Shown: positions 5,579 to 62,389 of the stretch, piece after piece | Position numbering within the stretch: position 1 is the first letter of the stretch | How the letters are laid out: every line of letters begins with the position of its first letter | Assembly (NCBI RefSeq): GCF_014697105.1 | Contig: NZ_JACJRF010000027.1 | Coordinates: 1 to 64,000, forward strand | Direction of reading: 5' to 3' | From: Anabaena subtropica FACHB-260 | GTDB lineage: Bacteria > Cyanobacteriota > Cyanobacteriia > Cyanobacteriales > Nostocaceae | DNA length: 64,000 nt | Made by a program: the position numbers and the translations under genes | The notes under the pieces: generated by a model | What the model saw: only the letters and a program-made list of their open reading frames with translations | Database searches by the model: none | What the model was told of the DNA's origin: nothing

Positions 5579-6687
<1,109 letters not shown>

Positions 6688-6717
6688 GTAATGCCGTAAT
6701 CAGGAGACACGGAGACA

Positions 6718-6749
6718 GGAAGATGAGGAAGCAATTCCTCTTCCCACTC
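6718..6749 (+). promoter_or_regulatory. Hairpin between nifH and nifD
   Basis: GAGGAA (6725-6730) and TTCCTC (6735-6740) around GCAA form the core of a stem that extends with GGAAG/CTTCC. There is no T-run, so it is unlikely to be a full terminator. In other diazotrophs such structures stabilise or process the nifH message, which would fit its higher level. Confidence 0.5.
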
Positions 6750-6819
6750 TCCCTTCCCGACTCCTCACTCTCCCAAATATATTTCTATTTCCCCATTCGT
6801 AAGAGTCACTGAGGCAGAT

Positions 6820-8262
6820 ATGACACCTCCAGAAAACAAGAATCTTGTAGAAGAAAATAAGGAACTTATTCAAGAAGTTCTCAAAGCTTATCCCGAAAAA
6901 TCTCGCAAAAAACGCGAAAAGCACCTCAACGTCCACGAAGAAAACAAGTCTGATTGCGGCGTTAAGTCTAACATCAAATCCGTTCCTGGTGTAATGACCG
7001 CCCGTGGTTGTGCTTATGCAGGTTCTAAGGGTGTGGTTTGGGGTCCTATTAAGGACATGATCCACATCAGCCACGGTCCCGTAGGTTGTGGTTACTGGTC
7101 TTGGTCTGGTCGTCGTAACTACTACGTTGGTGTAACTGGTATCAACTCTTTCGGTACCATGCACTTCACCTCCGACTTCCAAGAACGCGACATCGTGTTT
7201 GGTGGTGACAAAAAACTCATTAAACTCATTGAAGAACTCGACGTTCTTTTCCCTCTCAACCGTGGTGTTTCCATTCAATCTGAATGTCCCATCGGTCTAA
7301 TTGGGGATGACATCGAAGCTGTTGCTAAGAAAACTTCTAAGCAAATTGGTAAGCCTGTTATACCCTTACGTTGCGAAGGTTTCCGTGGTGTATCTCAGTC
7401 TTTAGGACACCACATCGCTAACGACGCTATCCGTGACTGGATTTTCCCAGAATACGACAAGCTCAAGAAAGAAAACAGACTTGACTTCGAGCCAAGCCCT
7501 TATGATGTAGCTCTAATCGGTGACTACAACATCGGTGGTGATGCTTGGGCCAGCCGGATGTTGTTGGAAGAAATGGGCTTACGCGTTGTAGCTCAGTGGT
7601 CTGGTGATGGTACTCTTAACGAGTTGATCCAAGGGCCTGCTGCTAAGTTAGTCCTCATCCACTGCTACCGTTCCATGAACTACATCTGCCGTAGTTTGGA
7701 AGAAAAATATGGTATGCCTTGGATGGAGTTCAACTTCTTCGGTCCTACCAAGATTGCTGCATCTTTGCGTGAAATCGCAGCTAAGTTTGACTCCAAGATT
7801 CAAGAAAACGCTGAGAAGGTAATTGCTAAGTACACACCAGTAATGAACTCTGTACTTGAGAAATACCGTCCTCGCCTAGAAGGTAACACCGTCATGTTGT
7901 ACGTAGGTGGTCTACGTCCTCGTCACGTTGTTCCCGCTTTTGAAGACTTGGGTATCAAAGTAGTTGGTACTGGTTACGAATTCGCTCACAACGACGACTA
8001 CAAACGTACCACCCACTACATCGATAACGCCACCATCATTTACGATGACGTTACCGCCTACGAATTTGAAGAGTTCGTAAAAGCTAAGAAGCCTGATTTA
8101 ATCGCTTCTGGTATTAAAGAGAAGTACGTCTTCCAAAAGATGGGTCTTCCCTTCCGTCAAATGCACTCTTGGGATTACTCCGAACCTAGCGACGGGGTGC
8201 AGATGTCAGATGAGGTAAGATTTTTCGGTGAGGGGAGAAAAAAGAGTCTATTTTTAGCCTAA
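6820..8262 (+). CDS. nifD: NifD, nitrogenase alpha subunit, 5' part truncated by the nifD element
   Basis: Codons 1-455 encode nearly all of the MoFe protein alpha subunit. P-cluster ligands are C64, C90 and C156; FeMo-co ligands are C282 and H449 in RQMHSWDYS. The true gene continues only to the direct repeat GGATTACTCCG (8172-8182). Beyond it the frame runs 26 codons into element DNA and stops at 8262, giving a 480-residue chimera. After excision the frame joins exactly (TAC TCC GGC) to the segment ending at 18824, giving 497 codons. The unexcised product lacks the conserved C-terminus and is presumably inactive. Confidence 0.95.
8172..8182 (+). repeat. Left direct repeat of the nifD element (attL)
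   Basis: GGATTACTCCG here is repeated exactly at 18683-18693. It is the known core sequence of the XisA recombination site in heterocystous cyanobacteria. Crossing over between the copies removes 10,511 bp and restores nifD. Confidence 0.95.
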
Positions 8263-8514
8263 ATACAGGTTGTAGAGTTGGGTAGGGGCAATGTTTGTTT
8301 GAAACTACATATAATATAACTCTCATGAAGACTAGCTTTTAAGATTTTATTAAATTTGTATGAAATTAAAAATATAAATTTAGATACTATTTTAAGTTAT
8401 TTTTTTTAGACTATTATCTCAATTCAATAGCCTGCTTGTGAAAAGTAAAAATCAACACAAATAATTTAGATACAGCAAACAAATTACTAAAAATGTTTAA
8501 ATAGCTAGTCAATA

Positions 8515-9429
8515 CTATGGATTTACTACAGCAATCACATTTAGATTATCGCTGCCAGAATTCTTTAAATCATTAACCAATCCATTAGGATTATTCAGAT
8601 AACCATCTGGATCATAAATAAAACAAAACAAGTATTTACAATCTGGATGATTGTTATACCTAATAATATCAATGGCCAACTCTTCACCAATTTTCTTATC
8701 TGTCAATGTTTCACGAGTTTTTTTCACTTCAATAACTATTTTTTCTGCTTTTAGTAAGAAATCAACTCTTGATGAACTACCAGCGTAGCTAGGAGTCCAC
8801 TCTTCTGAACGAACATCATCAAAATCGACTTTTAAAAGTGAGTTTAGTAAGTCCTGTACATCATATTCATCTTTAATCTTTAAAGTCTCTCTAGCTTTGC
8901 TGTTATCTAAACGCCTTCTCTCTAATTGTCTAGCAACTAAATGAAAACGTCGACAAATTACAACAAGCCTGTTTACAGCTTGTTCTGAAAGCGTTTCTTG
9001 AGCATCTTTTTTATACAAATAAGGGTACACCTCATCTAAAGATAGAGCATAGTTGACTGCGCTAAGAACTTCATTGTTAATTCTATGTATCTCAAATACA
9101 GGAAATGGAGGTTCTTTATTTTCTACTTGATAATGCTCAAATACATCTGCAAAAATAGTGTTTTGGCTTAAAAGAAGATTTTGAAATCTTATTAGAGCAG
9201 TTACAAGTTGTTCTGGAGAGGAAAAACCTTCAGGTATGCGTAAATCACAAAATGTTTCTGATATTGAGAAAAAAGTATTGGACATTATTTGTGAAATTTC
9301 AGAATGTCTATAGTAAAATCCATAACCCTTATTAGGTCTTAATTCTTTCATGTCTTCAAAGTATTCTAAGTATTTAGCTTGAAAAAATCTACCTAAATAG
9401 TTTTGAACTTCAGGTAAGTAACGCTGCAT
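8515..9429 (-). CDS. DpnII/MboI-type PD-(D/E)XK nuclease-domain protein
   Basis: 304 residues. The C-terminal third reads DEYDVQDLLNSLLKV, then EEWTPSYAGSSSRVDFLLK, IVIEVKKTR and HPDCKYLFCFIYDP. This is the core of a restriction-endonuclease-like fold family related to DpnII/MboI, with D (RVDFLL) and ExK (IEVKK) as the likely catalytic residues. The N-terminal 170 residues are helical and unrecognised and may act as sensor. No methyltransferase lies nearby, so an ordinary restriction-modification system is unlikely; a stand-alone defence nuclease is an inference. The ATG lies next to a weak purine stretch. Confidence 0.7.
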   Translation of the reverse strand: MQRYLPEVQNYLGRFFQAKYLEYFEDMKELRPNKGYGFYYRHSEISQIMSNTFFSISETFCDLRIPEGFSSPEQLVTALIRFQNLLLSQNTIFADVFEHYQVENKEPPFPVFEIHRINNEVLSAVNYALSLDEVYPYLYKKDAQETLSEQAVNRLVVICRRFHLVARQLERRRLDNSKARETLKIKDEYDVQDLLNSLLKVDFDDVRSEEWTPSYAGSSSRVDFLLKAEKIVIEVKKTRETLTDKKIGEELAIDIIRYNNHPDCKYLFCFIYDPDGYLNNPNGLVNDLKNSGSDNLNVIAVVNP

Positions 9430-48042: not shown

Positions 48043-48804
48043 ATGATTGAACAGCAATTTTCTGGGGAAACCACAGTCATATTTGAGCAGTTGTGGAATA
48101 TTACCAAAGAACTCCGCCAGAAACTAGACGCACGTTTTGAGTTACAACCAGATCAGTCTACCAAAGATTTACAAAGTTATTCTGCTCAGGTAGGAGCAGC
48201 CCACGGTTCACTGAATACTTTCTCTGGTGCAGAAATTGATTGGCTAGTGCATTCATGGTTGCGCGAACCCAACTCAGGTTTTTGCAATATGCACTTAACT
48301 ATTTGGTTGGATTCACACATTCGTGTTCCCCATTTAGCTTTTGCCTTTGCTACCGTACCACACTTATTCTTCTACATGGATTATATTGCACGTAGCGATT
48401 TATTCACCGATTTAGATTATTTAGACCGTTACTACGCACCTGCAAACGACCGATATTTAGCATTTGCCAATGACGATCGCTTCCAGCAATATATCAGCAA
48501 AACTCTCTACATTCGTCAGGTACAATCTCAGACAAGCCTTTGTTATACTAGCCCAGTCACAGATGAAACCATTGCGGCTCTAAGTTCAGTAGCTCATGAG
48601 ATGATAGATCGTTGGTTGGGTTGGGTAGATGAAGCAGAACCTGTACCAGAATCAGAACGCACTGCTTTAGCAGAACGTGATTTAATTGTCCGTCGAGCGA
48701 TCGCCGAACGCGACCCAGATAATAAAATTGCAGTACGGCTATTCGGCGAACAGATGACAGATAAATTAGTGCGATCGCTTTGGGGAGGCGACAGAATAAA
48801 ATAA
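48043..48804 (+). CDS. Red chlorophyll catabolite reductase-like protein
   Basis: 253 residues. GAEIDWLVHSWLREPNSGFCNMHLTIWLDSHIRVPHLAFAFATVPHLFFYMDYIARSDLFTDLDYLDRYYAP aligns by eye with the ferredoxin-dependent bilin reductase fold of plant RCC reductase, including the PHxxFxxxxxPxxxxxxDxxxRxDL pattern. Plant enzymes reduce an open-chain chlorophyll breakdown product; a cyanobacterial substrate is not established. GGAG (about 48030) precedes the start. The nitrilase-like and aldehyde dehydrogenase genes follow on the same strand. Confidence 0.65.
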   Translation: MIEQQFSGETTVIFEQLWNITKELRQKLDARFELQPDQSTKDLQSYSAQVGAAHGSLNTFSGAEIDWLVHSWLREPNSGFCNMHLTIWLDSHIRVPHLAFAFATVPHLFFYMDYIARSDLFTDLDYLDRYYAPANDRYLAFANDDRFQQYISKTLYIRQVQSQTSLCYTSPVTDETIAALSSVAHEMIDRWLGWVDEAEPVPESERTALAERDLIVRRAIAERDPDNKIAVRLFGEQMTDKLVRSLWGGDRIK

Positions 48805-48851
48805 TTCGTAATTCTTAATTTTACTTTTCCCCACTCCCTATTTACAAAAGC

Positions 48852-49895
48852 ATGGCAGATAACTCTAGTAATCTCAACTCATTTCGAGCTTTGGCGCTGC
48901 AAGTTACCTGTCATGCAGTGAATCAAGCAAGCGATCGCCAAGAAGCTGGATTGATGATGCACAATACTATTAACCGCTTGGCACAACAAATCGCTGCGAG
49001 TATTGCTTTCATTGGTTTTGACTGTCGCTTAATTGTCCTACCAGAATATTTCCTGACAGGTTTCCCGATGGGAGAACCCTTGCAATTATGGGCGGATAAA
49101 GCCTGTTTGGAAATTGACGGTGCTGAATACGAAGCATTGGGGAAAATTGCCCAGAAACATCAAATATTTTTGGCTGGTAACGCCTACGAACTTGACCCCA
49201 ACTTTCCCCAACTTTACTTTCAAACCTGCTTTGTTATTGACCCATCGGGATCAGTAATTTTACGTTATCGAAGGTTAAATTCTTTATTTGCTCCCACACC
49301 CCATGATGTCTGGGATAAATACCTTGATTGTTACGGCTTAGAGGGTGTGTTTCCCGTGGCTAAAACTGCCATTGGTAACTTAGCAGCTTTAGCATCAGAA
49401 GAAATTTTATACCCAGAAGTGGCGAGATGTTTAGCAATGCGAGGAGCAGAAATTTTCCTCCACTCCACCTCTGAAGTGTATAGCCAAAACCTCACCCCCA
49501 AAGATGCAGCCAAAATTACTCGCGCCGTCGAGAATATGGCTTATGTGGTTTCAGCTAATACCGCAGGTCTAGCTAATAGCCCCATTCCCATTGCTTCCGT
49601 TGATGGCGGCTCAAAAATCATTGACCATCGGGGCATAATTTTAGCAGAGACTGGTGCAGGCGAGAGTATGGCAGCCTTTGCCGAAATAGACCTAGCCGCA
49701 TTAAGACGCGATCGCCAAAGACCAGGGTTATATAATTTACTATCTCGTCAAAGATTTGAGATGTATGCTCAAAGCTATAGTCAGTCACAATTTTACCCAG
49801 CCAATACTATGCTGGATCAGGAAGTAGACCGCAAACATTTTATACAAACACAACAACAAACCATTAAACGCCTAACTGAGTTAGGAATTATTTGA
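48852..49895 (+). CDS. Nitrilase-superfamily protein lacking the catalytic Cys and Lys
   Basis: 347 residues with the carbon-nitrogen hydrolase fold: RALALQVTCHAVNQ at the start, the catalytic-type Glu in LIVLPEYFLTG, and GAEIFLHSTSEVY. At the Lys site (normally YRK) it reads YRRLNSL; at the nucleophile site (normally ICxDxxYPE) it reads LASEEILYPE, with Ser instead of Cys. Both substitutions lie in well-aligned blocks, so it is either a pseudoenzyme or uses other chemistry. It begins 47 bases after the RCCR-like gene. Confidence 0.75.
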   Translation: MADNSSNLNSFRALALQVTCHAVNQASDRQEAGLMMHNTINRLAQQIAASIAFIGFDCRLIVLPEYFLTGFPMGEPLQLWADKACLEIDGAEYEALGKIAQKHQIFLAGNAYELDPNFPQLYFQTCFVIDPSGSVILRYRRLNSLFAPTPHDVWDKYLDCYGLEGVFPVAKTAIGNLAALASEEILYPEVARCLAMRGAEIFLHSTSEVYSQNLTPKDAAKITRAVENMAYVVSANTAGLANSPIPIASVDGGSKIIDHRGIILAETGAGESMAAFAEIDLAALRRDRQRPGLYNLLSRQRFEMYAQSYSQSQFYPANTMLDQEVDRKHFIQTQQQTIKRLTELGII

Positions 49896-49926
49896 TGGTT
49901 GACCAATGACTCATGACTATTGACAA

Positions 49927-51345
49927 ATGACCAAAACAATAGAAGTTCGTAACCCACGGACTGGAAAATTTGATTATGTGATTATACCGCCACCGCCGAG
50001 GTTGCTGGCACAGCAATGTAACCGGGCGCGGCGGGCGCAATCTCGTTGGCAACAATTGGGCGTAGAAGGCAGAATTAGCGCCTTACAGCAATGGAAACAA
50101 GGCATACTATCTAGGCGAGAACAGCTAACAGATGCGTTGGTGAATGATACGGGCAGATTATCTACAACTGTATTAGAAATTGATTCGTTCCTGGCCAGCA
50201 TCGATCGCTGGTGTGGTTTAGCGCCAGAATTACTGCAAGAATCTGCCAAAAATACCAGTATTCCGTTTATCGCCTTACAACAAGCATCTGTTCCCTACTC
50301 CTTAGTTGGTGTCATCAGTCCGTGGAATTTTCCCTTGTTACTATCGATGATTGATACAATTCCGGCATTGCTGGCGGGTTGTGCGGTAGTTGTCAAACCC
50401 AGTGAAATTGCACCCCGGTTTGTAGCACCACTGTTGATAGCACTAAATACAGTTCCTGACTTACGAGATATCTTAATTTTTGTGGAGGGAGCCGGGGAAA
50501 CTGGGGCTGCATTGATTGATTGTGTAGATTTGGTATGTTTTACAGGTAGTGTCGCCACTGGACGAGAAGTAGCAGAAGTTGCAGCCAGACGCTTTATTCC
50601 AGCTTATCTGGAATTGGGAGGCAAAGATCCGGCGATCGTTTTAGAATCAGCCGATTTAGACTTAGCAACCTCAGCTATTTTATGGGGCGCAGTCGTCAAT
50701 ACAGGACAGTCTTGTTTATCTATTGAACGAATTTACGTCGCTGAATCTATATTTGAAGAGTTTTATCATCAACTAATAGCCAAAGCCCATCGTCTACAAC
50801 TAGCTTACCCCTCAGTTGAAGATGGAGCGATCGGCCCCATCATTGCCGAAAGACAAGCGGGAATTATTAACAATCATATTTTAGAGGCAGTGGAGAAAGG
50901 AGCAGTAATTCACTGCGGCGGTAAAGTTGAGGAATTAGGCGGCGGTTGGTGGTGTCGTCCCACAGTGCTAACTCAAGTCAACCATTCCATGAAGGTGATG
51001 ACCGAAGAGACTTTCGGCCCCATTATGCCAGTAATGCCCTTTCCCACCGTTGAGGAAGCGATATATTTAGCCAACGACTCAATTTATGGACTTAGTGCGG
51101 CGGTATTTGCTGGATCAGAAGATGAAGCCTTAACAGTAGCCCGCCAATTAAATGTAGGTGCTATTAGTATTAATGATGCTGCCCTCACCGCCATTATGCA
51201 GGAGGGAGAGAAAAATGCCTTCAAATTTTCTGGCATGGGTGGTTCGCGCATGGGTGCAGCAGGTTTGAAGCGGTTCCTGCGAAAACAGGCATTTTTGATT
51301 AAAACCAACTCTGCCAGGAACCCTTGGTGGTTTGATGTCCATTAA
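49927..51345 (+). CDS. Aldehyde dehydrogenase family protein
   Basis: This 472-residue NAD(P)-dependent dehydrogenase has GVISPWNFPLLLSM for coenzyme binding, PSEIAP, FTGSVATGREVA, the Glu of YLELGGKDPAIV and the nucleophile Cys of NTGQSCLSIERIYV. It oxidises an aldehyde to an acid. It follows the nitrilase-like gene by 31 bases, so the three genes probably form one operon. The substrate is unknown. Confidence 0.9.
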   Translation: MTKTIEVRNPRTGKFDYVIIPPPPRLLAQQCNRARRAQSRWQQLGVEGRISALQQWKQGILSRREQLTDALVNDTGRLSTTVLEIDSFLASIDRWCGLAPELLQESAKNTSIPFIALQQASVPYSLVGVISPWNFPLLLSMIDTIPALLAGCAVVVKPSEIAPRFVAPLLIALNTVPDLRDILIFVEGAGETGAALIDCVDLVCFTGSVATGREVAEVAARRFIPAYLELGGKDPAIVLESADLDLATSAILWGAVVNTGQSCLSIERIYVAESIFEEFYHQLIAKAHRLQLAYPSVEDGAIGPIIAERQAGIINNHILEAVEKGAVIHCGGKVEELGGGWWCRPTVLTQVNHSMKVMTEETFGPIMPVMPFPTVEEAIYLANDSIYGLSAAVFAGSEDEALTVARQLNVGAISINDAALTAIMQEGEKNAFKFSGMGGSRMGAAGLKRFLRKQAFLIKTNSARNPWWFDVH

Positions 51346-54664: not shown

Positions 54665-56812
54665 ATGCCTTACGAACAATTAGAAATTAAAACACCAGCA
54701 CCTGTATTATCTTGGGCAAATCATGAACTAGGTTCAGAAGAAACCAAGATGGCTAAAAATGTGGCATCCCTACCATTTGTATTTAAACACGTAGCATTAA
54801 TGCCAGATGTTCATTTAGGAAAAGGTGCTTTAGTTGGTTCTGTAATTGCTACTAAAGAAGCAATCATTCCTGCTGCTGTAGGCGTGGATATCGGCTGTTT
54901 TGTTGGAGATACTTTAGTTCCTCTAGTTGATGGTCAATGTTATCGAATTCAAGACCTAGCAGAACAGGGAAACGAATTTATTATTTATACTTGTACTCCA
55001 ACTGGGAAAATAGTTGCAGCTCAAGCAAATGCCAAGTTAACCAGAAAAAATGCTCCACTGGTCAAAGTAATTTTAGACAATGACGAGGAAATTATTTGTA
55101 CTCCTGACCATCAATTTATGTTGCGAGATGGGACTTATAAAAAAGCTGAGTTACTGCAACCAGAAACTTCCTTAATGCCTTTTTACTCTCGGATTGACAA
55201 AGATGGTTATACTCTAATTTCTCAACCATATTCAAGTCGATGGCACAAAGCACATTGGATTGTTGCTAGATCAGGTTTACTGGGTAAAATTCCTAGATTT
55301 GAAGGTCAAATAACAGTCATTCATCACCGTAATTTCCAAACCTCTGATAACCGACCAGAAAATTTGGAATTTATGGGTAATAATGAACATTCTGCTTACC
55401 ATCGTTCTTTAGTAGAAAATAATCAACATTGGCAATCTCCTGAATTTGAACAAAAAAGAATTGCTTCCCTAGCTCACAAAGCAACAACTCCAGAAGGATA
55501 CCAATATTATGCAGAACGAGGAACTAGAAACATCCTTCAATATATGCAGCAGCAACCGGAACATTTTAAAAATGCAGTTGCAGATAATGGAATGCGGGGT
55601 AAGCAATATTTAATTGCCTACAATACTAGCGAGAAAGGAAAAGCAAAATCTCAAGAAATTGCTAACCGATACTATAAATGCGAAATTTGTGGAGCATCTA
55701 TTAAAACTCCTATTGGGCTGCACAACCACCGCAAGAAAGAACATCAATGTAATCACAAAGTAGTGGCAGTAATTCCTCTCAATTATACAGAGGATGTTTA
55801 CTGTCTCTCAGTGCCAGAATATCATAACTTTGCTCTCAAAGCTGGCGTTTTTGTACACAATTGCGGTATGAGTGCTATAAAAACACCATTTACTGGTGAA
55901 CAATTAGAAGGCAAACTAAAGAAAATACGCCTAGATATTGAAGCCGCAATTCCTACAGGTTTTAATGAAAATAAAGAAGTAGAAAAATCAGTCACTAACT
56001 GGCAACATTGGCATGACTTTAAAAACTTACACAAAGGTGTCCAAGACTTACAATCTAAAGCTATGAGACAAATGGGTTCTCTTGGCGGTGGAAATCATTT
56101 TGTAGAAGTTTGCCTAGACACAGAAAATCAAGTTTGGTTGATGCTGCACTCTGGTTCACGCAATATCGGCAATCAACTTGCTCAGTGTCATATTAGTACA
56201 GCAAAGGAGTTAGCAAAATTGGCTGGTAATAAATTACCTGATCCTGATTTAGCTTACTTTATAACTGGTACACCAGAATTTCAAGCATACTGGCATGATT
56301 TACAATGGGCGCAAGATTATGCTCGTGTCAATCGTGATGTAATGATGGCGCGTTTCAAACGCATCATTGAAAAGCATTTGGCTGGAGGAAAACTGACAAA
56401 ATCTCTATTGCAGGTTAACTGTCATCATAACTACGCCGAAAAAGAAGTACATTTTGGAGAAGATATCTATGTAACGCGTAAAGGTGCAGTCCGCGCTCAG
56501 ACAGAAGATTATGGCATTATTCCCGGTTCAATGGGAGCAAAATCTTTCATTGTTAAAGGTAAAGGTAATGCACATAGCTTTTGTTCTTGCTCTCACGGCG
56601 CTGGTCGTTTATTGTCGAGGAATAAGGCAAAAAATACTTATACACTTGATGATTTAATTGAGCAAACAAAGGGTGTAGAATGCCGGAAAGATACTGGCGT
56701 TTTAGATGAAATACCTGGTGCATATAAACCAATTGATCAAGTAATGAACAATCAAGCCGATTTAGTCGAAGTTGTAGCTACACTTAAGCAAGTTGTTTGT
56801 GTAAAAGGCTGA
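54665..56812 (+). CDS. rtcB: RtcB RNA ligase containing an intein
   Basis: The 715-residue precursor is a 393-residue RtcB ligase interrupted at the catalytic metal-binding Cys. N-extein residues 1-77 end in AAVGVDIG. The C-extein starts CGMSAIKTPF at residue 400, and includes GSLGGGNHFVEV and HNYAEKEVHF. RtcB joins 2',3'-cyclic-phosphate or 3'-phosphate RNA ends to 5'-OH ends using GTP, in tRNA repair. Splicing is required for activity because the intein separates the active-site Cys from the DIG motif. No rtcA is nearby. Confidence 0.95.
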   Translation: MPYEQLEIKTPAPVLSWANHELGSEETKMAKNVASLPFVFKHVALMPDVHLGKGALVGSVIATKEAIIPAAVGVDIGCFVGDTLVPLVDGQCYRIQDLAEQGNEFIIYTCTPTGKIVAAQANAKLTRKNAPLVKVILDNDEEIICTPDHQFMLRDGTYKKAELLQPETSLMPFYSRIDKDGYTLISQPYSSRWHKAHWIVARSGLLGKIPRFEGQITVIHHRNFQTSDNRPENLEFMGNNEHSAYHRSLVENNQHWQSPEFEQKRIASLAHKATTPEGYQYYAERGTRNILQYMQQQPEHFKNAVADNGMRGKQYLIAYNTSEKGKAKSQEIANRYYKCEICGASIKTPIGLHNHRKKEHQCNHKVVAVIPLNYTEDVYCLSVPEYHNFALKAGVFVHNCGMSAIKTPFTGEQLEGKLKKIRLDIEAAIPTGFNENKEVEKSVTNWQHWHDFKNLHKGVQDLQSKAMRQMGSLGGGNHFVEVCLDTENQVWLMLHSGSRNIGNQLAQCHISTAKELAKLAGNKLPDPDLAYFITGTPEFQAYWHDLQWAQDYARVNRDVMMARFKRIIEKHLAGGKLTKSLLQVNCHHNYAEKEVHFGEDIYVTRKGAVRAQTEDYGIIPGSMGAKSFIVKGKGNAHSFCSCSHGAGRLLSRNKAKNTYTLDDLIEQTKGVECRKDTGVLDEIPGAYKPIDQVMNNQADLVEVVATLKQVVCVKG
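54896..55861 (+). mobile_element. Intein with HNH homing endonuclease in rtcB
   Basis: 322 residues (78-399 of the precursor). It starts with Cys78 (CFVGDTLVPL), has the B-block histidine in CTPDHQF, and ends VFVHN before Cys400, so all splice residues (C1, TxxH-like block, HN, C+1) are present. The insert carries VIHHRNFQTSDNRPENLEFMGNNEHSAYH, an HNH endonuclease, and a C2H2-like zinc knuckle (CEICGASIKTPIGLHNHRKKEH). It is likely active in splicing. Homing activity is plausible. Confidence 0.93.
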
Positions 56813-59086: not shown

Positions 59087-60490
59087 TTATGTAGCGGAAT
59101 GCTGTATCAACCTTCTTTTGATTTCTGCCGCCAAGTTTTCCAAAGTCACTTCTACTTGTTCGCCTGATTTTAAATCTTTGAGGGATGATTTTTGTGCTGC
59201 GGCTTCATCGGCGCCAATAATTACACAAAATTGAATGCCTTGTTTATCTGCTGCTTGAAATTGCTTACCTAACTGGCGTTTTTCAAAATTTGTAATTACA
59301 TTAATGCCTACTTGACGCAACTGTTGTGACACTTTTAAATAAGTTGGCATTAAGTCATCTTGCATATTGACTACTACTACCTGGGCTGGCGTAGCAGGTA
59401 AGGTATTTAAAATACCTGCTTTAAGTAATCGGCTAATTAAGCGAGTTAAGCCGATAGAAATGCCCACTCCGGGCATTTTTTCACCTAAAAAAGTTCCCAC
59501 TAATTCTTCGTATCTGCCTCCAGAACAGATACTACCTAAAGCTTCATGACCGATAAGAGTTGTTTCGTAGACTGTGCCTGTATAGTAATTTAACCCACGA
59601 GCGATTGATAAATCAATACAAAAACGTTTTTCGGGAACTTCCAGATTCCGCACGCCTGTAATCACTGTTTCTAATTCGCTGACACCTAAATTAAATTGTT
59701 TTGATTCTGGTAGATTTTGTGATAGATGTTTGAGTTTATTTAATACGTCATTAACGCTGCCATCAATTTTGATAAAGTCTATAATTTTTTGTGTCTGTTC
59801 TACTGATATACCTTCTTTTTCTAATTCTTGTTTTACTTTAGTTTCACCGATTTTTTCTAAATTATCAATGATGCCAATACAAGTCTTAATTTGATTTTCG
59901 GCAATTTCTAACGATTGAAAGAATCCTGTAAGAAGTTTGCGGTTATTAATGCGGATTAAAAAATCACCAATATTAACTGCTTCAAATATTTGGGTAATAA
60001 TTGCAGGCATTTGAGCATCATAAAGCAAGCTGAGTTCACGTCGCCCAACTACATCAATATCACACTGACGAAACTGACGAAAACGTCCATCTTTTGCTCG
60101 CTCTCCTCGAAAAACCACATCCATTTGATAACGAGCAAAGGGAAAGGTTAATTCATTTAAGTGACGGGCAATATACGCTGCTAAAGGAACAGTTTGGTCA
60201 AATTTTAAGGCTCTGGCTTCTGAACCTGTTTCCCCAGATTTATCTCTTTCTGCTTGACGATTTGGTGGCAAAATCGGGTCGATACCATAAATAATATTAT
60301 CACCTTGATTGCCTTTAGCTTGTAATACTTCTAAGCGTTCAACTGCGGGAGTTTCAATAGGTGTAAATCCGTAGCTTTCATAAACTCTACGGATGGTATC
60401 TAGTAAATATAATTCTAGGCGTTTTTCGCTAGGCAGAAATTCGGGAAATCCGCTAGGAGTTGAGAAGTTGATTTTGTCACTTTTTGCCAT
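59087..60490 (-). CDS. hisS: HisS, histidyl-tRNA synthetase
   Basis: 467 residues, class II synthetase. Motif 2 is FRGERAKDGRFRQFRQCDIDVVG; the histidine-specific ARGLNYYTGTVYE and the motif 3 region GVGISIGLTRL follow; the anticodon-binding domain begins at about residue 365 (PAQVVVVNMQDDL). All catalytic motifs look intact. Confidence 0.97.
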   Translation of the reverse strand: MAKSDKINFSTPSGFPEFLPSEKRLELYLLDTIRRVYESYGFTPIETPAVERLEVLQAKGNQGDNIIYGIDPILPPNRQAERDKSGETGSEARALKFDQTVPLAAYIARHLNELTFPFARYQMDVVFRGERAKDGRFRQFRQCDIDVVGRRELSLLYDAQMPAIITQIFEAVNIGDFLIRINNRKLLTGFFQSLEIAENQIKTCIGIIDNLEKIGETKVKQELEKEGISVEQTQKIIDFIKIDGSVNDVLNKLKHLSQNLPESKQFNLGVSELETVITGVRNLEVPEKRFCIDLSIARGLNYYTGTVYETTLIGHEALGSICSGGRYEELVGTFLGEKMPGVGISIGLTRLISRLLKAGILNTLPATPAQVVVVNMQDDLMPTYLKVSQQLRQVGINVITNFEKRQLGKQFQAADKQGIQFCVIIGADEAAAQKSSLKDLKSGEQVEVTLENLAAEIKRRLIQHSAT

Positions 60491-60609: not shown

Positions 60610-61056
60610 TTATTTTAGCCGTTCTTCTTGAATCAGAGTACGTTGGTATATTTGATCATTTTTAAACCAGTGCCAAGTTCTCGCACGATGGTTATTATCA
60701 GGACTAATTTGAATCATTTCATACAAGTACATTGCTGGGACTGTCTTATAAGAAAACCACAAAATTACGCTAGAGTCATCTATTTCCCAGGCTTTGCCTT
60801 GAATGCGATCGCTATCAAACCACAGTATTTTATCTTGATACGTCCCAGGAAATTTATGTTCTTCTTGTTTCCCATCAGCCCATGTGTAGCGATTAATTTG
60901 ATAATAGGGATAGGGGCCATCTTCAGGAAATTGGCAGCTTAAGTGAGATTCATGGTGGTCAAGAATTTTTCCTGAGGTATCAATTAATGTATATGTGCCT
61001 ACCCATTCACCTTCATGACGAGCAAGCACGGGCATTTCTTCGCGGATGTTAGACAT
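60610..61056 (-). CDS. DUF3598-type hypothetical protein
   Basis: 148 residues from MSNIREEMPVLARHEGEW. The open frame extends 21 codons upstream, but those read through a short intergenic repeat and would overlap aroA, so the ATG at 61056 is better. WVGTYTLIDTSGKILDHHESHLSC, YYQINRYTWADGKQEEHKFPG and WFSYKTVPAMYLYEMIQISPD give a lipocalin-like barrel pattern seen in DUF3598 proteins. Confidence 0.72.
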   Translation of the reverse strand: MSNIREEMPVLARHEGEWVGTYTLIDTSGKILDHHESHLSCQFPEDGPYPYYQINRYTWADGKQEEHKFPGTYQDKILWFDSDRIQGKAWEIDDSSVILWFSYKTVPAMYLYEMIQISPDNNHRARTWHWFKNDQIYQRTLIQEERLK

Positions 61057-61108
61057 AATTTGGGTACAGGGTACAGGAGATGGAGTGAGAAAAACTAATG
61101 ACCAATGA

Positions 61109-62389
61109 CTATTGACCAATCATCTTCAAGAATCGGGTAAAGTAGTCTGGAAAGGTTTTTGCTGTACAACTGGGATCTTGAATCACAATACCCGGAGCTT
61201 TTAAGCCTGTAACGGCAAAAGCCATTGCCATTCTATGGTCGTGGTAGGTTTCGATGGCGGCTGGGGTAATGGGGCTTGGCTCAATTTTCATCCCATCGGC
61301 AAATTCTTCTACTTTGACACCTAAGCGACGTAATTCAGTAACAACAGCGCGGATGCGTTCGGTTTCTTTGTAGCGGATATGCTCTACATTACGGATGGTA
61401 ACAGGTGAACTGGCAAATGGTGCGATCGCTCCCAATGTTTGCACTAAATCCGACATATCATTCATATCAATGTCGATACCCTGTAATTGTTCTGGGCCGA
61501 TAACTTCGGTGTAATTTTCACCCTCATGCACCTGACAACCCATCTGTTCTAAAACATTGAGCCAGAGAATATCACCTTGGCAGGATTGTTTGGTCAAATG
61601 GTTAACCCGCACCCTTCCCCCAGTGACGGCGGCGGCGGCGAAAAAGTAAGACGCATTCGACGCATCGGGTTCTATAGTATAGTGTCGGGCTTGGTAACGT
61701 TGACCCGCTTTGATATGAAATTGATTGTCGTCGGTTTGGGTAACATCTACGCCAAAATCAGCCATGAGACGACAAGTCATTTTGACGTAAGACTGGGAAA
61801 CTAATGTACCCTCAACCTCAATAGTTGTATCCTGTTGAGCGTAGGGTGCAATCATCAGCAATGCGGAAAGTTGCTGACTGGTTTGGTTAGCTTTTAAGCG
61901 AAAATGCCCACCAGCAAACTGCTGACCGTAAATAGTATAGGGCATAAAACCAGGGTTGCCTTCAAAGTTGATTTTTGCTCCACCAGCTTGTAGGGCTGTC
62001 AGCAAATCCCCCATAGGTCGTTCCCGCATCCGTGGAACACCATCTAAGCGATATTCACCATTTCCTAGTGCTACCAGAGCCGAGATAAACCTTGCTGCTG
62101 TACCCGCCAGTCCAACAAACAAATCTGCTTGTTTAGCTGGAATTTCCCCTCCCTTTCCTGAAACTTGGATTTGAGCCAGATGAGCATTTAGTGTAATGGG
62201 AATGCCCAACTGCTCTACACATTTAGCAAAATACTCACTGTCTTCACTAAATAAAGCATTTTCTAAAGTAGAGTCACCTTGCGCTAAAGCAGCAACAAGT
62301 AATGCCCGATTAGTGATACTTTTAGAACCAGGAATCTCTACTGTGGCATCCACAGAACGATTCAGGGCGGGGATGGCGATAGTATCCAC
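61109..62389 (-). CDS. AroA, EPSP synthase (or MurA)
   Basis: 426 residues of the EPT superfamily. PGSKSITNRALLVAALAQGDSTLENAL, the LFVGLAGTAARFISAL loop, and YRLDGVPRMRERPMGDLLTALQAGGA are EPSP synthase motifs, and SKSITNR with GTAARF favours AroA over MurA. It makes 5-enolpyruvylshikimate-3-phosphate in the aromatic pathway. Active-site DHRMAMAFAV is present near the end. Confidence 0.9.
   Translation of the reverse strand: MDTIAIPALNRSVDATVEIPGSKSITNRALLVAALAQGDSTLENALFSEDSEYFAKCVEQLGIPITLNAHLAQIQVSGKGGEIPAKQADLFVGLAGTAARFISALVALGNGEYRLDGVPRMRERPMGDLLTALQAGGAKINFEGNPGFMPYTIYGQQFAGGHFRLKANQTSQQLSALLMIAPYAQQDTTIEVEGTLVSQSYVKMTCRLMADFGVDVTQTDDNQFHIKAGQRYQARHYTIEPDASNASYFFAAAAVTGGRVRVNHLTKQSCQGDILWLNVLEQMGCQVHEGENYTEVIGPEQLQGIDIDMNDMSDLVQTLGAIAPFASSPVTIRNVEHIRYKETERIRAVVTELRRLGVKVEEFADGMKIEPSPITPAAIETYHDHRMAMAFAVTGLKAPGIVIQDPSCTAKTFPDYFTRFLKMIGQ

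Follow-up and report, generated by a model that had tools for sequence, protein, structure and literature searches.

A serine-containing CN-hydrolase-family protein paired with an aldehyde dehydrogenase, and its changeable RCCR-like neighbour, in Anabaena subtropica and other cyanobacteria

Background

Three tightly spaced genes in Anabaena subtropica FACHB-260 raise the question of whether they form one pathway, and of which kind. They lie in a stretch of 64,000 nucleotides (contig NZ_JACJRF010000027.1, positions 1 to 64,000), here called the window. The genes encode a protein like red chlorophyll catabolite reductase (RCCR), a member of the CN-hydrolase (nitrilase) family (NIT) and an aldehyde dehydrogenase (ALDH). 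A first-pass annotation had proposed a pathway acting on a bilin or chlorophyll product, with a NIT that binds rather than hydrolyses. The evidence below points to NIT and ALDH as the steady unit, probably with a DUF3598 protein as third member, and to RCCR as an optional extra.

RCCR homologues of cyanobacteria, namely Npun_R3277, Npun_R3279 and one in Anabaena variabilis, were already reported by Thomas et al. 2009 (PMC2716323) and belong to the same protein family as the window RCCR. One Nostoc copy was strongly expressed in hormogonia, and gene transfer between host and symbiont was guessed. In the part of that article available to us, no mention was found of NIT, ALDH, DUF3598 or variation at Glu154. 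RCCRs also serve as the outgroup in bilin-reductase phylogenies, as two other articles show (PMC10151467, PMC13193486). No description of a NIT-ALDH(-DUF3598) module was found in the literature, as judged by titles and the openings of abstracts.

Results

The RCCR-like protein (48043..48804, forward strand, 253 aa) scores 83.6 bits against the Pfam RCC_reductase profile (PF06405, cut-off 24.9). NIT (48852..49895, forward, 347 aa) scores 107.8 bits against CN_hydrolase (PF00795, cut-off 23.2), and none of the nine NCBIfam models that match it reached its cut-off. ALDH (49927..51345, forward, 472 aa) scores 350.7 bits against Aldedh (PF00171, cut-off 23). The three open reading frames (ORFs) share one strand, with gaps of 47 bp between RCCR and NIT and 31 bp between NIT and ALDH, and the arrangement is thus as tight as first described. 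ALDH keeps Asn134, Glu229 and Cys263, which we take to be its active-site residues, and so carries the Cys, Glu and Asn of the aldehyde dehydrogenase superfamily. Among 118 cyanobacterial rows the Glu is invariant, and the Cys and the Asn are each kept in 115. A close full-length relative is the aldehyde dehydrogenase of PDB 4h7n (968 bits), presumably from Anabaena variabilis, and a gene context is now supplied for that solved structure.

A survey of 386 genomes drawn from the cyanobacterial phylum found RCCR in 14, NIT in 22 (E 1e-40) and ALDH in 43 (E 1e-150). All but one of the ALDH-bearing genomes (42 of 43) belong to the family of the window genome; the other is from a different family of the same class. 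NIT adjoins ALDH in all 22 NIT-bearing genomes, one of which has a truncated NIT. RCCR occurs somewhere in the genome in 10 of these 22 and was not detected in 12, and an RCCR-like gene lies directly upstream in somewhat under half of the cyanobacterial NIT-ALDH cases. Seen from the RCCR side, 9 of the 14 RCCR genomes, the window genome among them, have the complete trio side by side, and the three genes are therefore neighbours in other genomes as well. A further RCCR genome (G125) has RCCR, a NIT remnant and ALDH. In the other four, NIT and ALDH are absent from the stretch fetched around RCCR; G167 has NIT-ALDH elsewhere, and G030 and G174 have ALDH elsewhere. Four of the 14 RCCR genomes thus lack an intact NIT, namely three with none detected and G125 with its fragment.

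Gene order was also read in 80 named loci, the best 80 of 355 NIT relatives in named genomes, all cyanobacterial by title; a NIT ORF was called in 79. ALDH lies on the same strand within 300 bp of NIT in 71 of the 79; of the other eight, four have it 303-706 bp away and four have no called ALDH ORF. A tblastn search found ALDH in 77 of the 80 loci, and the remaining three (L129, L140, L150) end at or just after NIT. The same search found RCCR in 44, DUF3598_N in 56 and histidyl-tRNA synthetase (HisS) in 43, the latter two downstream of NIT-ALDH, and an NmrA-like gene in 31. HisS is a housekeeping gene and was therefore set aside as a likely bystander. RCCR precedes NIT at a distance of no more than 350 bp in 37 of the 79 loci (within 50 bp in 24 of them), and the two genes overlap by 13-20 bp in three rows. 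In the cyanobacteria surveyed, mainly Nostocales, every intact NIT with enough flanking sequence adjoins ALDH. RCCR is the most changeable member of the trio, and NIT with ALDH is the steady unit. A degenerate NIT (G125, locus L028, 7746-7898) and the truncated NIT of G300 (L088) both still adjoin ALDH; therefore, NIT can be lost while ALDH stays.

When NIT was aligned to the Nit-Fhit chain 1ems, Glu65 (49044-49046) stands opposite Glu, Arg141 (49272-49274) opposite Lys and Ser182 (49395-49397) opposite Cys, all on the forward strand; the Cys, Lys and Glu of 1ems at these columns are presumably its catalytic triad. NIT is thus like the amidases of the nitrilase superfamily (Nit-Fhit 1ems, formamidase 2dyu/2e2k, aliphatic amidase 2uxy) in family and in the triad Glu, but differs from them in having Ser182 for Cys and Arg141 for Lys. 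It has neither the catalytic Cys nor the catalytic Lys of an active nitrilase or amidase. The formamidase chain 2e2k likewise has Ser in this column, and we take it to be an engineered, inactive Cys-to-Ser mutant. Ser182, Arg141 and Glu65 were each found in 100 of 101 cyanobacterial NIT rows, which are not all independent since some genomes contribute a row both from the survey and from the named loci; the exception is the truncated gene of G300.

The same three residues are present in the NIT of the actinomycete Nonomuraea gerenzanensis. The replacement of Cys by Ser and of Lys by Arg noted in the first-pass annotation is real. No conserved Cys displaced from the catalytic position was found. 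The window NIT has six Cys residues (positions 20, 58, 85, 126, 160 and 193) and none is kept in the Nonomuraea NIT, where five are substituted and position 20 falls in a gap; therefore, the two proteins have no displaced nucleophile in common. More distant relatives on plasmids are less uniform at the Ser182 position, with Ala in 3, Gly in 1 and Cys in 3 of the 7 aligned (8 of 16 matches were inspected, Nonomuraea included).

Identity between the window and Nonomuraea NIT is 80%, 67% and 80% within 7 residues of Glu65, Arg141 and Ser182, respectively, versus 51% overall. Judged by sequence, this higher conservation is compatible with a pocket in use, and would accommodate binding as well as catalysis. 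Median pairwise dN/dS (Nei-Gojobori) was 0.077 for NIT (14 pairs), 0.077 for ALDH (13) and 0.233 for RCCR (13), with 0.065 for DUF3598_N (8 pairs) and 0.060 for HisS (5 pairs). These values come from 14 locus pairs of our choosing, one of which (L135-L139) is not close; for each gene, pairs that lacked it or had a dS of at least 1.5 are left out, and the first RCCR copy was taken in two-copy loci. Purifying selection on NIT is as strong as on ALDH. An AlphaFold model of NIT was too poor for use (pLDDT 46.7).

Nonomuraea gerenzanensis (NZ_LT559118, locus L114) has ALDH (6150-7574), DUF3598_N (7579-8013) and NIT (8010-8981) in one tight run: with starts called mechanically, the first two genes are 4 bp apart and the last two overlap by 4 bp. 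Its ALDH is 52% and its NIT 49% identical to the window proteins, and its DUF3598_N protein is 42% identical to that of the window and 43% to that of locus L089. Nonomuraea makes no chlorophyll. No match to RCCR was found in the whole plasmid collection, the Nonomuraea record included (E 1e-5). The older unit is probably NIT-ALDH-DUF3598, with RCCR an optional and faster-evolving cyanobacterial extra, because every one of the 22 NIT-bearing genomes has the NIT-ALDH pair, including the 12 in which RCCR was not detected, the Nonomuraea run has all three genes of the unit and DUF3598_N recurs in the named loci. RCCR would then be a later cyanobacterial addition, put no more firmly than this because the search outside cyanobacteria covered 14 control genomes and the plasmids.

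The predicted model of the window RCCR (pLDDT 90.0) has Arabidopsis RCCR chains as its nine best PDB matches, at 21-24% identity. The best of them is 3agb_A (TM 0.79, query-normalised; 24% identity), and phytochromobilin synthase, PebB, PebA and PcyA follow in that order. Profile score and fold both place the protein in the RCC reductase family. It resembles the plant enzyme (Arabidopsis, 2zxk, 3aga, 3agb) in family, fold and Asp291, whose equivalent is Asp224, and differs from it in its low identity, in having Ala101 (48343-48345, forward) where Arabidopsis has Glu154 and in the linkage of its gene to NIT-ALDH. The numbering was anchored on the F218V mutant chain, in which residue 218 is Val in the alignment. 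Both Glu154 and Asp291 are presumably near the substrate in plant RCCR, with a role of Glu154 in catalysis, and the window protein therefore has one of this plant-type pair. Asp291 is kept in all 59 RCCR rows (62 found, three shorter than 235 aa dropped). The Glu154 position holds E in 35, A in 11, V in 5 and G in 3 of 54 distinct cyanobacterial RCCRs. A tree of these 54 rows needs at least 2 changes between Glu and non-Glu; it is a quick tree with many weak branches and with Arabidopsis on a very long one.

No link was seen between absence of Glu154 and closeness to NIT: RCCR lies within 250 bp in 28 of 38 Glu-type and 16 of 21 non-Glu rows, which come partly from the same genomes. Two RCCR paralogues, one Glu-type and one Val-type with an NmrA-like gene between them, were seen in L020 (G376), L128, L129 and L140; L020 and L128 may be the same genome. 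In many loci (L019, L020, L023, L027 and 31 of L122-L201) this NmrA-like gene, which encodes an SDR protein, immediately precedes RCCR or NIT, frequently on the opposite strand; it is on the strand opposite NIT in all 29 placed cases. It is present also where NIT is absent (L023, L027). Its placement suggests a second partner of RCCR or a common promoter.

Chlorophyll breakdown was also considered as the theme uniting these genes, and rejected. In a comparison of 38 genomes of our choosing, PaO (PF08417) is present in 12 of the 14 with RCCR and in 17 of the 24 without it, so that the PaO family tracks RCCR weakly at best.

Discussion

Our preferred reading, held tentatively and with somewhat less than even confidence, is that NIT-ALDH(-DUF3598_N) is a core module of small-molecule metabolism, with a Ser-Arg-Glu pocket in NIT, to which RCCR was added. 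ALDH, with its active site intact, would oxidise a small aldehyde to an acid. NIT would be a CN-hydrolase fold whose Cys-Lys-Glu centre has turned into Ser-Arg-Glu, and its pocket may hold, pass on or slowly turn over an amide or carboxylate that enters or leaves the ALDH step. The DUF3598_N protein may be an auxiliary ligand carrier or subunit. RCCR, which keeps the fold of the ferredoxin-bilin reductases and varies at Glu154, would be dispensable for the core; its substrate or ligand is probably an open-chain tetrapyrrole or something similar.

The wider neighbourhoods in some relatives point to the breakdown or tailoring of a small nitrogen-containing compound, and not to chlorophyll. Calothrix sp. 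PCC 7103 has a compact run of NIT, ALDH, DUF3598_N, an alpha/beta hydrolase, a DUF4437 cupin, MDR and SnoaL. Other loci add a hydantoinase/allantoinase-like amidohydrolase, an Asp/Asn-hydroxylase-like protein (a possible oxygenase), RidA and BKACE, each in a minority of the 80 named loci. Contig C17 of the window genome brings together relatives of four of these proteins: hydantoinase (88%), hydroxylase-like protein (82%), SnoaL (79%) and, weakly, cupin (33%).

Several observations weigh against the preferred reading. Each accessory gene is near NIT in just 3-14 of the 80 named loci and may be a chance neighbour, and no relative of the alpha/beta hydrolase was above threshold in the window genome. 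The three-gene run outside cyanobacteria was found once only, among plasmid records, while the best 80 of the 355 named relatives are all cyanobacterial. Of the 56 loci with DUF3598_N, just 23 have it no more than 400 bp from ALDH. On one Embleya and two Novosphingobium plasmids, DUF3598_N relatives stand in 18 kb of fetched sequence that contains no NIT; a partial match to ALDH was found in one of these three stretches and none in the other two. ALDH is also more widespread than NIT at the thresholds given above.

An alternative is that the trio is a tetrapyrrole pathway in which a bilin or chlorophyll product would be reduced by RCCR and bound, as such or as its amide, by NIT, while ALDH would oxidise a formyl or aldehyde fragment. 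The frequent placement of RCCR just upstream of NIT (37 of 79 loci) agrees with it, as do the retained RCCR/bilin-reductase fold and the invariant Asp291, but NIT-ALDH is found without detected RCCR in 12 of 22 genomes and, with DUF3598, in the non-phototroph Nonomuraea. In addition, 4 of the 14 RCCR genomes have no intact NIT, Glu154 is missing from 19 of the 54 distinct RCCRs, that of the window included, and the link to PaO is weak. Since RCCR is a changeable extra and NIT-ALDH a steady core, the trio is probably not a chlorophyll pathway, and this alternative is very doubtful. What stands of the original interpretation is the conserved trio and the replacement of Cys and Lys; the extension of a bilin or chlorophyll pathway to all three genes is mostly unsupported.

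Two other explanations concern NIT itself. It may be an active serine-type amidase or esterase, with Ser182 as nucleophile, Glu65 as base, Arg141 as binder of the oxyanion or carboxylate, and ALDH as the next step. The three residues are invariant in the 100 full-length cyanobacterial rows and kept in Nonomuraea, their motifs are conserved across phyla above the whole protein and the constraint on NIT equals that on ALDH. However, Ser in the same column belongs to the presumably inactive 2e2k, the change of Lys to Arg is a second departure, and four of the seven distant plasmid relatives have Ala or Gly, so that the wider family tolerates loss of the nucleophile; an active enzyme of this kind is unlikely. 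Or NIT may be purely a scaffold or regulatory pseudoenzyme that stabilises ALDH, its pocket a relic. This would fit the replacement of both Cys and Lys and the adjacency to ALDH in 22 of 22 genomes, but not the conservation of the pocket motifs above the rest of the protein or the failure of Ser to drift to Ala or Gly in any of the 100 full-length rows; moreover, nearly half of the ALDH genomes (21 of 43) have no NIT. A mere scaffold also seems improbable. A pocket in use, with altered chemistry or as a ligand binder, is favoured over a relic.

A bolder form of the preferred reading, which we consider decidedly unlikely, is that NIT founds a serine-based clade of CN-hydrolases (Glu-Arg-Ser) that forms, with a dedicated ALDH and DUF3598_N, an undescribed metabolic module found in both cyanobacteria and actinomycetes; in some cyanobacteria an RCCR with a changed active site and a new purpose would then have been added to it. 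If the preferred reading is right, the nitrilase superfamily would hold a conserved clade without Cys and Lys, with a pocket under ALDH-like selection and tied to one ALDH. Whether Ser is the working residue or the fold has turned into a ligand binder would be a directly testable question in cyanobacteria that are easy to work with in the laboratory. Cyanobacterial RCCR homologues would also be weaker markers of a plant-like route of chlorophyll breakdown.

Other features

The window also has a DUF3598_N gene (60610..61119, reverse strand, start probably at 61056), inverted and about 9 kb downstream of NIT-ALDH. The HisS gene (59087..60490, reverse) lies beside it. A rearrangement seems to have parted these two genes from ALDH. 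A DUF3598_N relative on a plasmid of Novosphingobium sp. RL4 (L208) lies near genes that, read by eye from their sequences, resemble an isochorismatase-type hydrolase, a polysaccharide deacetylase/PuuE, an MFS transporter and a TonB receptor.

A gene for CcmS, a carboxysome chaperone, lies upstream, 213 bp before RCCR. It is absent from the 13 other RCCR neighbourhoods and the 80 named NIT loci and is therefore a probable bystander. Scans for promoters and terminators found sites no commoner than in shuffled sequence (7 versus a mean of 8.1, and 3 versus 3.6, respectively). An RtcB RNA ligase gene (54665-56812) carries an in-frame intein that interrupts it (Intein_splicing 75.7 bits, cut-off 35.8), inside which there is an HNH endonuclease match with a score under the cut-off.

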